The position numbers and the translations under genes were made by a program. From positions 1-37,775 of the IMG/VR virus record IMGVR_UViG_3300044952_000207: a stretch of DNA of 37,775 bases; one strand, written 5' to 3'. Below, piece by piece: positions 14,638-19,932 of the stretch. Source of the DNA: a virus. Within the stretch, counting starts at the first letter, position 1. Each line of letters opens with the position of its first letter. The notes beneath the pieces are model-generated. The model was not told where the DNA came from, ran no database searches, and saw only the letters and a list, made by a program, of their open reading frames with translations.

Positions 14638-15468
14638 CTAAGTTTCTGTAAGGGTTTTTTGTCTCTTTTTTAGGATGGTGTTCATCTGGGTTTTCATCTT
14701 TGCTACGACTACAGCAACGGCCATAGCTTGTTCACTTGCCGGAATAACAGAATTTGCCCACGGAGTTGTGTTTGTCATCACAACGCGAGGACTTTTTATG
14801 TCGGATGTCAGGTCTTGAGTTTTCCCATTTTTAAAATCCGCCGTATGACGAATTACCCAAGGAGGAATTGATGCTGTCAGTTTGCCTTTGTTGACCTTTT
14901 TAAGTTGCAAAGCACAATTCGCCCATCCCGCCTTCGCAATACCAACCTTTTTGATTGCCTTTTGAATATATTCATCAAGCGATTCTTTACTGACAAACAT
15001 TTTATCTAAAAACTTCCACCTTCCTATGTTTCGGGTTTTTGAACCAGCGGATGACATCTTTCCATTTACAAAATTCTTTTTATGAAATGCTCGCATTTCC
15101 GCTGCGGAAGCATCTGGTCGAAACATTGTTTTTTCTGTGCCGTAAGCAAACCCATCCTTACCGACAAAAAGCCTAACATTGTCGCCAGTTTTATACCAAG
15201 AATATCCATTTTCTTCAGTCATTGCTGCGCCAATAGCCCCGAAGATTCCCACTCTACGCTTTCTTCCAATGAGATCGCCCGTGATGGCATTTTCTCCAGT
15301 TTCTCTAGCCTTATTGTCATCTCCGAACGGCTGAGTCCTTCTCGCTAACTCCACGCAAAGAAGGCGAGCGTTAAGTGATACGGCGTCAGGAATCGTGACT
15401 TCGCGTATCTCCGCATAGTCCTCCATGATCTGCTCAAACTTCACACTCTCGAACTTGAATTTTGCCAT
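14638..15468 (-). CDS. Tail-region protein between chaperone and tape measure
   Basis: 276 residues, basic, starting MAKFKFESVKFEQIMEDYAE. The first part contains SLNARLLCVELARRTQPFGD, followed by a polar central region and a C-terminus rich in Lys (KMKTQMNTILKKRQKTL). Its ATG lies inside the end of the -1 frame extension of the chaperone, so the genes overlap by about 35 bases. Position suggests a tail completion or minor tail protein; the arginine- and lysine-rich ends would fit contact with DNA or acidic surfaces. No family recognised. Confidence 0.65.
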   Translation of the reverse strand: MAKFKFESVKFEQIMEDYAEIREVTIPDAVSLNARLLCVELARRTQPFGDDNKARETGENAITGDLIGRKRRVGIFGAIGAAMTEENGYSWYKTGDNVRLFVGKDGFAYGTEKTMFRPDASAAEMRAFHKKNFVNGKMSSAGSKTRNIGRWKFLDKMFVSKESLDEYIQKAIKKVGIAKAGWANCALQLKKVNKGKLTASIPPWVIRHTADFKNGKTQDLTSDIKSPRVVMTNTTPWANSVIPASEQAMAVAVVVAKMKTQMNTILKKRQKTLTET

Positions 15469-15685
15469 ATTTTGCGAGGGTATCTTCTATGGTGGCGAGA
15501 GCGTCAACATCTACGGAAGCGTTGTTGCGCGACCAAGGACGGTGGATGCCGTTCGTGTAGTCGTCGGCTTGGAGTAACTGCAACCCTGCCGCGAACGGGA
15601 GTTCTTCCAGGATGTGAACGAAGCCCCAGCCGGTCAGCTTAACGAGTCGAAAGACGTAAGCTGCGAGCCAGTTGGGGCTATTTAG
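15434..15685 (-). CDS. Tail assembly chaperone, -1 frameshift extension (GT-like part)
   Basis: An open frame of 83 codons with no start codon, in the -1 frame of the upstream chaperone. It begins by re-reading base 15685 at the slippery site and reads LNSPNWLAAYVFRLVKL, then GWGFVHILEELPFAAG, ending at TGA 15436-15434 inside the next gene. Fused to the 131-residue product it makes 214 residues. The Trp- and Leu-rich helical content, and its place between major tail protein and tape measure, match the T domain of G/GT tail chaperones, which binds the tape measure during tail assembly. Confidence 0.8.
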   Translation of the reverse strand, partial: LNSPNWLAAYVFRLVKLTGWGFVHILEELPFAAGLQLLQADDYTNGIHRPWSRNNASVDVDALATIEDTLAKYGKIQVRECEV

Positions 15686-15691
15686 TTTGGG
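15622..15691 (-). promoter_or_regulatory. Programmed -1 frameshift signal: slippery heptamer plus nested stems
   Basis: On the minus strand, zero frame, the last sense codons are AGC CCA AAC then TAA, giving the heptamer C CCA AAC (15691-15685). This fits X XXY YYZ exactly. Five bases further, AGCCCCA (15679-15673) pairs with TGGGGCT (15628-15622), and inside it CAGCTTA (15663-15657) pairs with TAAGCTG (15641-15635). Both stems are 7 bp without mismatch. The distance suits a stimulatory structure. Confidence 0.8.
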
Positions 15692-16077
15692 CTTCCTGAT
15701 CCGGCTTTAGATTCCGTTGCCGATGCGTTGTAAAGCTCAAAAGCGGAGTTCATCGCGTCCGACATAGAACCGACTTCGAGATGATGCGCCATGTTCTTTT
15801 CGATCCACGAATCCACGGCGTTAACGAACGTATCGCGGTCATTGACGACAGATCGGATCGAGCTTGTTGGCTCGCTGTGGAGAAACGCAAAGGCTGCTGC
15901 CTTCCAAACGAGATCCATGTTCCCGCTGAAAATCTCGTTGCGTTGCATCCAGCTAATTGTAAGCGCCGTGATCGGTCGCAAGGTGCGCCCGTTTACTTTT
16001 TTCGGCCCGTCCTCCATCGCTTGAATGCGAAGAATTTCGTCGTCTTTTACTAGGTCTGTGTTTTGTGTCTTTTTCAT
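15682..16077 (-). CDS. Tail assembly chaperone (G-like product)
   Basis: 131 residues. The centre is helical (RPITALTISWMQRNEIF, then DLVWKAAAFAFLHSEP) with a conserved-looking SSIRSVVNDRDTFVNAVDSW. The Ser/Gly-rich tail ends at TAA directly after a slippery heptamer, so most ribosomes would make this form and a fraction the 214-residue fusion. Such proteins coat the tape measure while the tail tube polymerises. The ATG overlaps the upstream stop (TAATG). Call from gene order plus frameshift architecture. Confidence 0.8.
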   Translation of the reverse strand: MKKTQNTDLVKDDEILRIQAMEDGPKKVNGRTLRPITALTISWMQRNEIFSGNMDLVWKAAAFAFLHSEPTSSIRSVVNDRDTFVNAVDSWIEKNMAHHLEVGSMSDAMNSAFELYNASATESKAGSGSPN

Positions 16078-16475
16078 TATTTTAAAAATCTTGTCATCTC
16101 TTGCTTGGTCTTGTCCGAAGCGTGCTCCGAAATGGCGATGCGTTTTCCGTTGTGCTCGATCTCGATCAAACGCGGGGTATTGCGGATGATGTCCACTAAT
16201 ACGTCGCGGTTCGCCAATGCGGCGCGGATGTAGCAGAGCGGGTTTTCTGGTTCTTTTGCTTCGAGTTCGTCGCCTTCCTTTGTCATCTGGCGATAGACTT
16301 GCGATGCGTCTTGACCCTTGTCGTTTTCGCCTTCAAACCAGAACTCGGTTGATTCCTTGCCGTCGGTGCGAACCAGTCGAGTGACCGGTGGGAAGTTCAT
16401 TTTGAAGCCCATCGTAGCGAGTGCCACAGCGGCTTTGAGGTTGATCGTGTGAAAGAATTTCTTATTGCAGTCCAT
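16077..16475 (-). CDS. Hypothetical protein between tail tube and chaperone genes
   Basis: 132 residues from the ATG at 16475, MDCNKKFFHTINLKAAVALA. A longer form from 16517 would read through the hairpin at 16480-16509, so the later start is preferred, though neither has an SD. Later parts include WFEGENDKGQDASQVYRQM and PRLIEIEHNGKRIAISEHA, a mixed alpha/beta protein. Its place suggests a chaperone-related or tail-completion role. No family recognised. Confidence 0.65.
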   Translation of the reverse strand: MDCNKKFFHTINLKAAVALATMGFKMNFPPVTRLVRTDGKESTEFWFEGENDKGQDASQVYRQMTKEGDELEAKEPENPLCYIRAALANRDVLVDIIRNTPRLIEIEHNGKRIAISEHASDKTKQEMTRFLK

Positions 16476-16479
16476 ATAT

Positions 16480-16509
16480 AAAAAGGCGGCTCCCTTTAGC
16501 CGGGGAGCC
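16480..16509 (-). terminator. Hairpin after major tail protein gene (probable weak terminator)
   Basis: On the minus strand GGCTCCC (16509-16503) and GGGAGCC (16494-16488) form a 7-bp stem with an 8-base loop, followed by GCC and five T. It lies 20 bases after the tail-tube-like gene, as another hairpin lies after the capsid gene. It would reduce expression downstream of an abundant product. Confidence 0.5.
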
Positions 16510-16528
16510 ATCGGCATGAGCCAGTTGC

Positions 16529-16894
16529 TTAGACGATCTCGGGGTATTGAGTCGCGGAAACGGTGATCGTTTTGAATGTGCCAGCGCCTGTCTTTTCGGA
16601 AACGGAATCAACGATGACTGCACCGCCAGAAACGCCATAGGAGGACGTATCGTTGGCGAGAGTTAGGACGTTGGCGAGTTCGTAGGCGACGCCGCCGTTG
16701 ATGACGCCATCAAGCGAGATCGTGGCGCTCTTGTTGAAGTACGCTACGGCAACGGTATCGCCGAGGGCGTCCATGACGGTTGCTTTGTCCGACTGAACGG
16801 AACGGGAGAAAGAATTGAGCAAAAGCCCAGTTTCTTGAAGGAGTCCGAACTCAACGCCGGACGCTACGGATGATGTGATGACGGTTGCTGGCAT
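16529..16894 (-). CDS. Major tail (tube) protein candidate
   Basis: 121 residues, compact and beta-rich (VSVDSVSEK-type strands, KSATISLDGVINGGVAYEL, GTFKTITVSATQYPEIV). It is the gene before the chaperone pair and is followed by a hairpin, as expected of a highly made tail tube subunit. It is short for a siphovirus tube protein, so a small tube or a related tail component is possible. Role inferred from gene order and composition. Confidence 0.6.
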   Translation of the reverse strand: MPATVITSSVASGVEFGLLQETGLLLNSFSRSVQSDKATVMDALGDTVAVAYFNKSATISLDGVINGGVAYELANVLTLANDTSSYGVSGGAVIVDSVSEKTGAGTFKTITVSATQYPEIV

Positions 16895-17361: not shown

Positions 17362-19932
17362 TTAAAAATATGTTGTCACAATTACAATTCCTTGACCTCC
17401 ATCGCCGCCCTTGCCTGAGAAGAAGGATGCGTTAAAATTCCCCAAGCACCCGCCACCACCGCCACCTCCGCCATACAACCCGCCATTGCCTCCACCGCCT
17501 GCGTTTTTTCCTGTATAGGCTCCGACCCCACCACTACCGCCGCCGCCTGCATGAATATATGTGCCCATGCTTGTTCCAGCTACGCCATTTGTCCCCTCAA
17601 CTCCCGACGATTGAGATTGTCCTCCAACTGGATTATTGCCTAGCACCCATTGTCCGTTTCCACCGTTAAAGAAGGATGTTGTATTTGCGCCTCCGCCGCC
17701 ACCACCACCAGCCGCAGAAATAAACGAGGATGAACCAGCCGCACCAGCCGCAGCACTCCCTCCTGCTCCACCAGCACCGGCGACATTAACATTTCTAATA
17801 CTTGCTGATCCGTTTCCTCCTGCTGCCCCAGATCCCCCCCCACCTCCACCAGCAAATACAAATGGATTTGTTGTGATCGCGCTAATTGCTCCGAAAGAAG
17901 AATCAAAGCCTGCCCCTCCTGGGATATTTTGTGAGTTTATTTGGTTCGTTGCCGTTCCACCGATTCCCTCAATTCCTACAAAGACTGGTTCAGTTGCAGA
18001 TAGAATTGTTGCTGGTATTTGCGTCCTAAAATTAAGTCCGCCTCCAGCCCCTGCACCACCACCTTGCAACCCAGCGTTAACTCGTCCACCCGCACCAGCA
18101 CCGCCTCCAGCAATACAAAAAACATCTACAGACTTTGCCCCAGTTGGTTTTGTCCAAGTGTATAAACTTGTTGCAAATCCTATTGTTGTAGCAATGTTGC
18201 GATCAGAATAATTGTATGTTGCATTTCCAGAAACGGTGATGGTTGTTCCTGAAATATTTGTAATTGTCGTTGGGATTCCACCAGATTGAGCCGGAAGAAA
18301 TGGGGCTGTAATAGCCATTCCAACAACCATGTTAGCATTACTTGCTACGGTTATTGTTGGGCTTCCAGATGTAAATGCGGTCGCTGTTGTTGTGAACAAT
18401 GTTTCGCGAGTAAAAATCTGGACGTCTGTCGTTTTTGCCTTCGCGTTGAACGTAGTCCAATCTGTTGATGAAATATATCCGCTCGTTGCAGCAGTAGCGA
18501 CCGGCATCGAGATAGTCGGAGTTGTGCCTCCGCTCGAAACAACTGGTGACGTGGCTCCGACCGATGCTACCTTTCCGCTGAGATCCGCTGAGAGTCCGCT
18601 GATTGTTCCGACGGTCAAAGTTGAGTTTGTCCAAAGCGTAGTTGCCGAGTTCCAAAGGATCGTTTGGTTGTTTTGCACCGAAGTAACCAAGACATTGTGC
18701 AATTCTTCAAGTTCAAAACCATTTTGCGGACGAATATAAAGCTGTCCGTTACCAGCATTTGCCCGTTCGACAACTCCGATAAAAACGATGTGGTCGGGTT
18801 GCGTTGGCTTAACTCGCGTAAATGTCCCTGCGGCGTTTCCAAGATAGACGGAATCTCCTTCCGCATACGGCGAGCCAAGTGAAAGCCCGTCAAGGACGCC
18901 TTGAGTAATTATGAATCCGTTCTGGTTTGCGCCAATGCTTTCGGCAACAAGGCCAATAGTTTTGGATGAGCTTGAATCAGCCACATTGGATGCCCTTTTT
19001 ACGCTTGCGCGGTTGCCTGTTGCTCCGAAAAGATAGACTACCTCGCCCTTGTTGAGCGTTGTTGCCTCTGCGTTGCGAACGTAGGCCACTAGCATTGATC
19101 CCATTTGCAACTGCACGTTGCCGCCTACAAGACCGACTTGCGGAGCGCCTTCGGTCGTGTTCCAGAACATCTTTCCGACGGCATTCGTTTCGGTCGCTGC
19201 CGTATTGAAATTGAGCGAGTCCGCAGGAACGTCTGCCAACATCGAGATCGTGCGCGAAGCGGAAAGATCGCCGCCGCCTGTCAGCCCTGTGCCTGCCGTG
19301 ATAGCCGTTATCTTGAGTGCCTTTGTATCAAGCGCACTTTGCAAGTCGGTCTGGTTTGAAAGTGTTCCGGTTATTGCTCCCCAAGATACAACTGAAAGTG
19401 GCGTGACTGCGCTCCACTCCGATCCAGTCCAACCCAAGGATTGACCCGTTATAGGTGCGGCTGTCGCGACCGAATAGCCCTGCAATTTAACAACGCTAGG
19501 CGCTGGATATGTCCCGCCAAGATCTCCCGATGCGGCGCCTGTAGGCGTGCGCGAATCGCTTAGGCGTGAGTCGGTGGTGATGACTGCTGTCCCTGAAATT
19601 GCGCTTGGTGAAATGCCGGACGATGGAGCCTTTGCATCGAGAACCGTTTGAAGATCGGTTTGGTTTGAAAGCGTGCCGGCAATGCCGCCCCAGATCGCCG
19701 ATCCACCGCCACCGCCACCCGTCACCCACTCCGTATCGTAGTCGGCGTTGGTTTTCTTCGCGAGCACTTGACCTGTAAATCCGCCCGTGACTACACCCGG
19801 CCCCACCGGCCCCGCTGGGCCTTGGCTTCCGGTTGGCCCCGCTGCGCCCGTTACCAACTCGGTGCGTAAAATTGGTTGATAATCTACTTCTGGGACTTCG
19901 CGGCCCTCGTCTTCTGGAAAGAAAATGCTCAT
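17362..19932 (-). CDS. Long glycine-rich tail fibre / receptor-binding protein with collagen-like segment
   Basis: 856 residues. After about 28 residues comes a collagen-like stretch of six Gly-X-Y triplets (29-46), then two copies of a WGxIxGTLSNQTDLQ repeat (near 81 and 184), a beta-rich middle, and from about residue 590 a glycine-rich C-terminal domain opening with YTWTKPTGAKSVDVFCIAG and ending QGIVIVTTYF. Such glycine-rich ends form polyglycine-II-like adhesin tips in phage fibres. Codon and base use shifts towards A/T in the C-terminal third, suggesting module exchange at the host-binding end. It sits between head-tail joiner and tail terminator, an unusual place for a fibre. Confidence 0.8.
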   Translation of the reverse strand: MSIFFPEDEGREVPEVDYQPILRTELVTGAAGPTGSQGPAGPVGPGVVTGGFTGQVLAKKTNADYDTEWVTGGGGGGSAIWGGIAGTLSNQTDLQTVLDAKAPSSGISPSAISGTAVITTDSRLSDSRTPTGAASGDLGGTYPAPSVVKLQGYSVATAAPITGQSLGWTGSEWSAVTPLSVVSWGAITGTLSNQTDLQSALDTKALKITAITAGTGLTGGGDLSASRTISMLADVPADSLNFNTAATETNAVGKMFWNTTEGAPQVGLVGGNVQLQMGSMLVAYVRNAEATTLNKGEVVYLFGATGNRASVKRASNVADSSSSKTIGLVAESIGANQNGFIITQGVLDGLSLGSPYAEGDSVYLGNAAGTFTRVKPTQPDHIVFIGVVERANAGNGQLYIRPQNGFELEELHNVLVTSVQNNQTILWNSATTLWTNSTLTVGTISGLSADLSGKVASVGATSPVVSSGGTTPTISMPVATAATSGYISSTDWTTFNAKAKTTDVQIFTRETLFTTTATAFTSGSPTITVASNANMVVGMAITAPFLPAQSGGIPTTITNISGTTITVSGNATYNYSDRNIATTIGFATSLYTWTKPTGAKSVDVFCIAGGGAGAGGRVNAGLQGGGAGAGGGLNFRTQIPATILSATEPVFVGIEGIGGTATNQINSQNIPGGAGFDSSFGAISAITTNPFVFAGGGGGGSGAAGGNGSASIRNVNVAGAGGAGGSAAAGAAGSSSFISAAGGGGGGGANTTSFFNGGNGQWVLGNNPVGGQSQSSGVEGTNGVAGTSMGTYIHAGGGGSGGVGAYTGKNAGGGGNGGLYGGGGGGGGCLGNFNASFFSGKGGDGGQGIVIVTTYF
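19318..19698 (-). repeat. Two in-frame copies of a WGxIxGTLSNQTDLQ fibre repeat
   Basis: Copies at about 19698-19627 and 19389-19318 encode AIWGGIAGTLSNQTDLQ and VVSWGAITGTLSNQTDLQ. They are about 103 residues apart. DNA identity is lower than protein identity, so the repeat is an old, selected one. Confidence 0.75.

Follow-up and report, generated by a model that had tools for sequence, protein, structure and literature searches.

A predicted -1 frameshift at a stop-abutting heptamer in a candidate tail assembly chaperone gene of a phage tentatively linked to Verrucomicrobia

The window, i.e., the whole stretch of DNA that was analysed, corresponds to a virus record 37,775 bases long; it encodes a portal of lambda type, a terminase of gpA type and a recognisable major head protein. 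On its minus strand lie a short gene, hereafter G, an extension frame displaced by -1, a further gene and the tail tape measure gene (Table 1), so that one gene separates the frameshifted pair from the tape measure gene. The preliminary description had put a chaperone before the tape measure; the predicted chaperone gene is indeed upstream of it, but not directly next to it, as the 276-aa gene lies in between and shares 35 nt with the extension. This intervening gene was mosaic, with 45-96% identity among phages whose extensions were 73-100% identical, a sequence pattern that suggests module exchange at its start. Small genes at 16077-16894 occupy the place expected for the major tail protein, and no tail-tube profile from Pfam or PHROGs matched them. 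An 856-aa collagen-like, glycine-rich protein is encoded amid the head-tail genes at 17362-19932, upstream of the chaperone gene.

Table 1. Features of the predicted frameshift locus and of the genes downstream of it (positions in the window).
Feature	Position	Strand	Basis
Predicted short tail assembly chaperone (G-like), 131 aa	15682..16077	-	open reading frame
Slippery heptamer C_CCA_AAC	15685..15691	-	direct reading; kept in relatives
0-frame TAA stop, directly 3' of heptamer	15682..15684	-	direct reading
Stem-loop, 5 nt 3' of heptamer	15622..15679	-	fold energy, pairing in relatives
Extension in -1 frame, 83 codons + TGA	15434..15685	-	conserved protein family; dN/dS
276-aa gene between extension and tape measure	14638..15468	-	overlaps extension by 35 nt
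Tail tape measure protein, 852 aa	12076..14634	-	PHROG 8462 E 9.9e-16; PHROG 9483 E 3.8e-15

The 3' end of G (131 codons) reads TCA GGA AGC CCA AAC TAA, so that CCCAAAC constitutes the last seven coding bases and abuts the stop codon, as had been described from the sequence alone. Across 31 genes of the window, motifs of the form X_XXY_YYZ occurred in frame at 0.5% of codon steps (47 of 9534), and three of these genes, G included, presented one exactly against the stop; by itself the heptamer was therefore no more than suggestive. At 36926-36920, A_AAA_AAT immediately precedes the stop of another gene. The gene upstream of G ends in T_TTA_AAA TAA (16086-16077) and G begins at TAATG, in the -1 frame; a second -1 fusion, into G, was considered at this place. 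The upstream motif was not kept in relatives, which often showed TTTGAAA or a G start out of register, and we thus treated it as a coincidence that doubles as a negative control. An AGGA resembling a Shine-Dalgarno sequence about 8 nt before the slippery heptamer was common among relatives; as it follows a Gly-Ser linker and varies, no function is claimed for it.

The junction was then compared in 76 distinct sequences, window included. Viral contigs were scanned with G, the extension, the following gene, a profile of the extension and a distant member as queries, and one relative among the 76 came from a match to a genome contig. These sequences derived from many metagenomes, and their lowest protein identities to the window were 31% (G) and 36% (extension). 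Relative to G, the extension lay in the -1 frame in every one of the 76, and a heptamer of the X_XXY_YYZ form stood directly against the stop (GGGAAAC in 57, CCCAAAC in 16 and AAAAAAA in three), the stop itself being TAA in 66, TAG in seven and TGA in three. Conservation of this junction in 76/76 sequences rules out chance. Stops interrupting the -1 frame in relatives, which the preliminary description had named as evidence against its frameshift reading, were found in none of them, and that reading gained support, since the relatives keep both the -1 frame and the heptamer. From the window alone, two frames belonging to one broken or mis-sequenced gene would be hard to tell from a recoded pair; the same break with the same kind of heptamer, in three versions, recurred in all 76 distinct sequences and across many metagenomes, and this refutes the broken-gene explanation, whose probability we regard as negligible.

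After a -1 slip the translation would continue as LNSPNWL...ECEV for 83 residues up to the TGA at 15436-15434, giving a predicted fusion of 214 aa (131 + 83); both the length of the open frame and that of the fusion agreed with the earlier reading. In 44 core sequences the dN/dS of the extension was 0.114 in the -1 frame vs. 1.51 and 2.27 in the other two, and variable columns were concentrated in the third codon position of the -1 frame (54 of 68, vs. 26 and 18). For G, dN/dS was 0.107 in its own frame. Residues PxWL, Y, R, TxW, I, ELP and GLQ were invariant along the extension in an alignment of 16 members, and conservation started exactly at the heptamer. These patterns of substitution indicated protein-like evolution of the extension in the -1 frame and in neither of the other two. 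Gene finders had missed or shortened this 83-codon frame, and its annotation is now corrected.

One alternative is that the -1 frame is an independent small gene, started internally and never fused to G. The absence of start codons from the -1 frame, asserted earlier, was verified for ATG and GTG, whereas one TTG lies deep inside the extension (15583-15581), and relatives often have an internal ATG or TTG. However, such internal starts lie within the conserved core and would remove the conserved first residues PxWL, conservation begins precisely at the heptamer, and 15 of the 76 sequences contained no ATG, GTG or TTG anywhere in the extension. This last result excludes internal initiation as a general explanation, and an independent gene is accordingly highly improbable. 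Codons 58-63 of the extension (GAT GTT GAC GCT CTC GCC; 15511-15494, minus strand) were nearly invariant synonymously in the 44 core sequences and sit 26-43 nt before the ATG of the next gene; they are perhaps a regulatory or recombination-conserved stretch.

Downstream of the heptamer, after a spacer of 5 nt, the outer stem AGCCCCA (15679-15673) / TGGGGCT (15628-15622) encloses an inner one (15663-15657/15641-15635), both of which had been pointed out as nested 7-bp stems. The fold energy was -29.0 kcal/mol vs. -20.1 ± 3.0 for shuffled sequences (z -3.0). The outer stem was fully paired (7/7) in 68 of the 76 relatives, with a mean of 6.76 pairs in comparison with at most 4.7 when the partner was slid. 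Covariation told little here, since most pairs of the outer stem are invariant; better evidence for the stem came from the frozen synonymous sites in its arms, where Pro3 was CCC and Gly20 was GGC in 44/44 core sequences, whereas Pro29, Gly33 and Gly45 of the same extension used three to four codons each. Conservation in relatives, which the preliminary description had proposed for comparison, thus held for the heptamer and the outer stem. The inner stem was less well conserved, with 73% of cells paired, and in that exact form it is probably not essential. In a distant clade (L112, L113 and L115) the old 3' arm was gone and the 5' arm, CCCCAAG, paired with a closer CTTGGGG to form a helix of 9 bp, 4-5 nt 3' of the heptamer; in these sequences the predicted pairing partner has shifted and the place of the stem is retained.

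Frame, heptamer and stem, together with coding and synonymous constraint, were maintained across the relatives. A programmed -1 ribosomal frameshift very probably yields GT (214 aa) beside G (131 aa) at this locus, as the long and the short form of a predicted tail assembly chaperone; we infer the slippage itself, its efficiency and the chaperone roles of the two products. A ribosome on C_CCA_AAC would have tRNA-Pro in the P site and tRNA-Asn in the A site; the stop codon would follow directly, and a strong stem-loop would stand where the mRNA enters. The smaller share of ribosomes would re-pair one base back (CCC AAA) and then read 83 codons in the -1 frame, and the remaining ones would terminate at the abutting TAA to give G. 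By analogy with lambda, many copies of G may coat the tape measure protein and few copies of GT may recruit the tail tube protein. Stop and stem are also placed as in some recoding sites of other kinds (in the bypassing of T4 gene 60, the stop abuts the take-off codon; PMC5009743), and the hairpin next to the stop might drive readthrough or ribosome bypass instead of tandem slippage. We give this very little credence. Readthrough keeps the 0 frame, which closed again within 65 codons after the stop in all 76 sequences (within 16 in 54 of them, usually 13-16) and hence cannot produce the extension, whereas bypass gives no reason for XXX and YYY to persist when X varies among C, G and A.

Regarding the host, relative L117 lies on a contig that was binned with the genome of a Verrucomicrobia bacterium; there, small tail-type genes are followed by G (ending G_GGA_AAC TGA), the -1 extension, a gene of 214 aa and the tape measure. 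The phage is of freshwater type and probably one of Verrucomicrobia, the best host guess, taken from this one bin.

The identity of the heptamer varied within the family. In a tree built from the extension, with the heptamer left out, the XXX type changed seven times by parsimony, at least three of these changes being forced by well-supported branches. The XXX triplet was always swapped as a block, and the second codon was always AAC or AAA, never AAG, in the 76 relatives. Recombination among these mosaic phages could be behind some of the changes, and at the AAAAAAA sites, which are runs of A, transcriptional slippage could contribute. With AAC in the A site, slippage in E. coli is weak as compared with AAG (PMC5009743), a point against the frameshift reading. 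The L117 bin carries both tRNA-Lys(UUU) and tRNA-Lys(CUU), and from this one draft genome we infer that tRNA-Lys(CUU) may make AAG less slippery. A host lacking queuosine, which would make AAC slippery, was considered as well; it was unsupported, the same bin having two TGT-family matches. As a tentative proposal, about which we are more doubtful than convinced, the frameshift cassette may undergo piecemeal replacement while selection steadily favours a single fusion ratio, with AAG avoided perhaps by way of the host tRNA-Lys(CUU). If this were true, the relatives would be a natural series for testing slippery sites tuned to the same output; the family in any case offers many naturally occurring replacements of heptamer and stem.

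Chaperone identity is predicted from position and architecture, by analogy with known pairs, rather than from homology. Profile searches of G and the extension found no family match in Pfam or PHROGs, and protein searches with the extension and L117 queries found no match in the phage collection; Mycobacterium phage matches to G (E 0.5, 34% identity over half of G) were taken as chance. The AlphaFold model of G (pLDDT 82) found no PDB match in the fold search, the best VIA Z being 3.0, to unrelated proteins, and its best viral match was an uncharacterised phage protein (E 0.11, TM 0.6). At the level of predicted models, then, the fold search of G speaks for chaperone identity neither way; the predicted model of the extension was too poor for use. 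Neither sequence nor fold thus links the pair to a known chaperone family, as would be expected if the frameshift were real and its products something else. This we consider unlikely: the place one gene before the tape measure, the short G, the matching size of the extension, the -1 direction and the co-conservation form a recognised pattern, and phage KL1 presents the same anatomy.

The mechanism itself is textbook biology, well known in tailed phages. The slippery site of lambda is G_GGA_AAG, some way before the stop, whereas the site described here has AAC as its second codon and lies directly against the stop. The anatomy is otherwise that of lambda G/GT, where, upstream of the tape measure gene, a -1 frameshift joins two frames that overlap, the short product being abundant and the long one rare (PMC5009743), and no profile match was obtained between the proteins. 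G_GGA_AAC, the commonest heptamer of this family, has been described at the G/GT sites of Caulobacter phage Colossus (PMC3556154) and haloarchaeal virus HCTV-1 (PMC5009743), whose hosts differ and for which the likeness lies in the site. The likeness to HK97 gp13/gp14 lies in gene layout, HK97 being listed among the phages in which a single gene separates the frameshifted pair from the tape measure (PMC3483164). Mean distances from slippery site to stop were 26 and 36 nt in the two sets of PRFect (PMC10885494), and strict abutment across a whole family lies at the short extreme of such distances. Stop abutment was already known, as it occurs in Burkholderia phage KL1, whose layout is nearly identical to that of the window pair: gp18/gp19 are a short and a long chaperone, one gene before the tape measure, with a predicted GGGAAAC immediately before the stop (PMC3483164). 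We read this heptamer directly upstream of TGA in the KL1 sequence (JF939047). KL1 differs in its host, Burkholderia, and in its longer extension (122 aa), and protein similarity to G or the extension was undetectable (hhalign probability 0.2%). On the basis of the -1 extension, the stop-abutting heptamer, the stem, the protein constraint and the tape measure one gene downstream, the window pair is very probably a new member, divergent in sequence, of the lambda G/GT class of tail assembly chaperones, to which it adds a previously unannotated, predicted family from phages linked to Verrucomicrobia.
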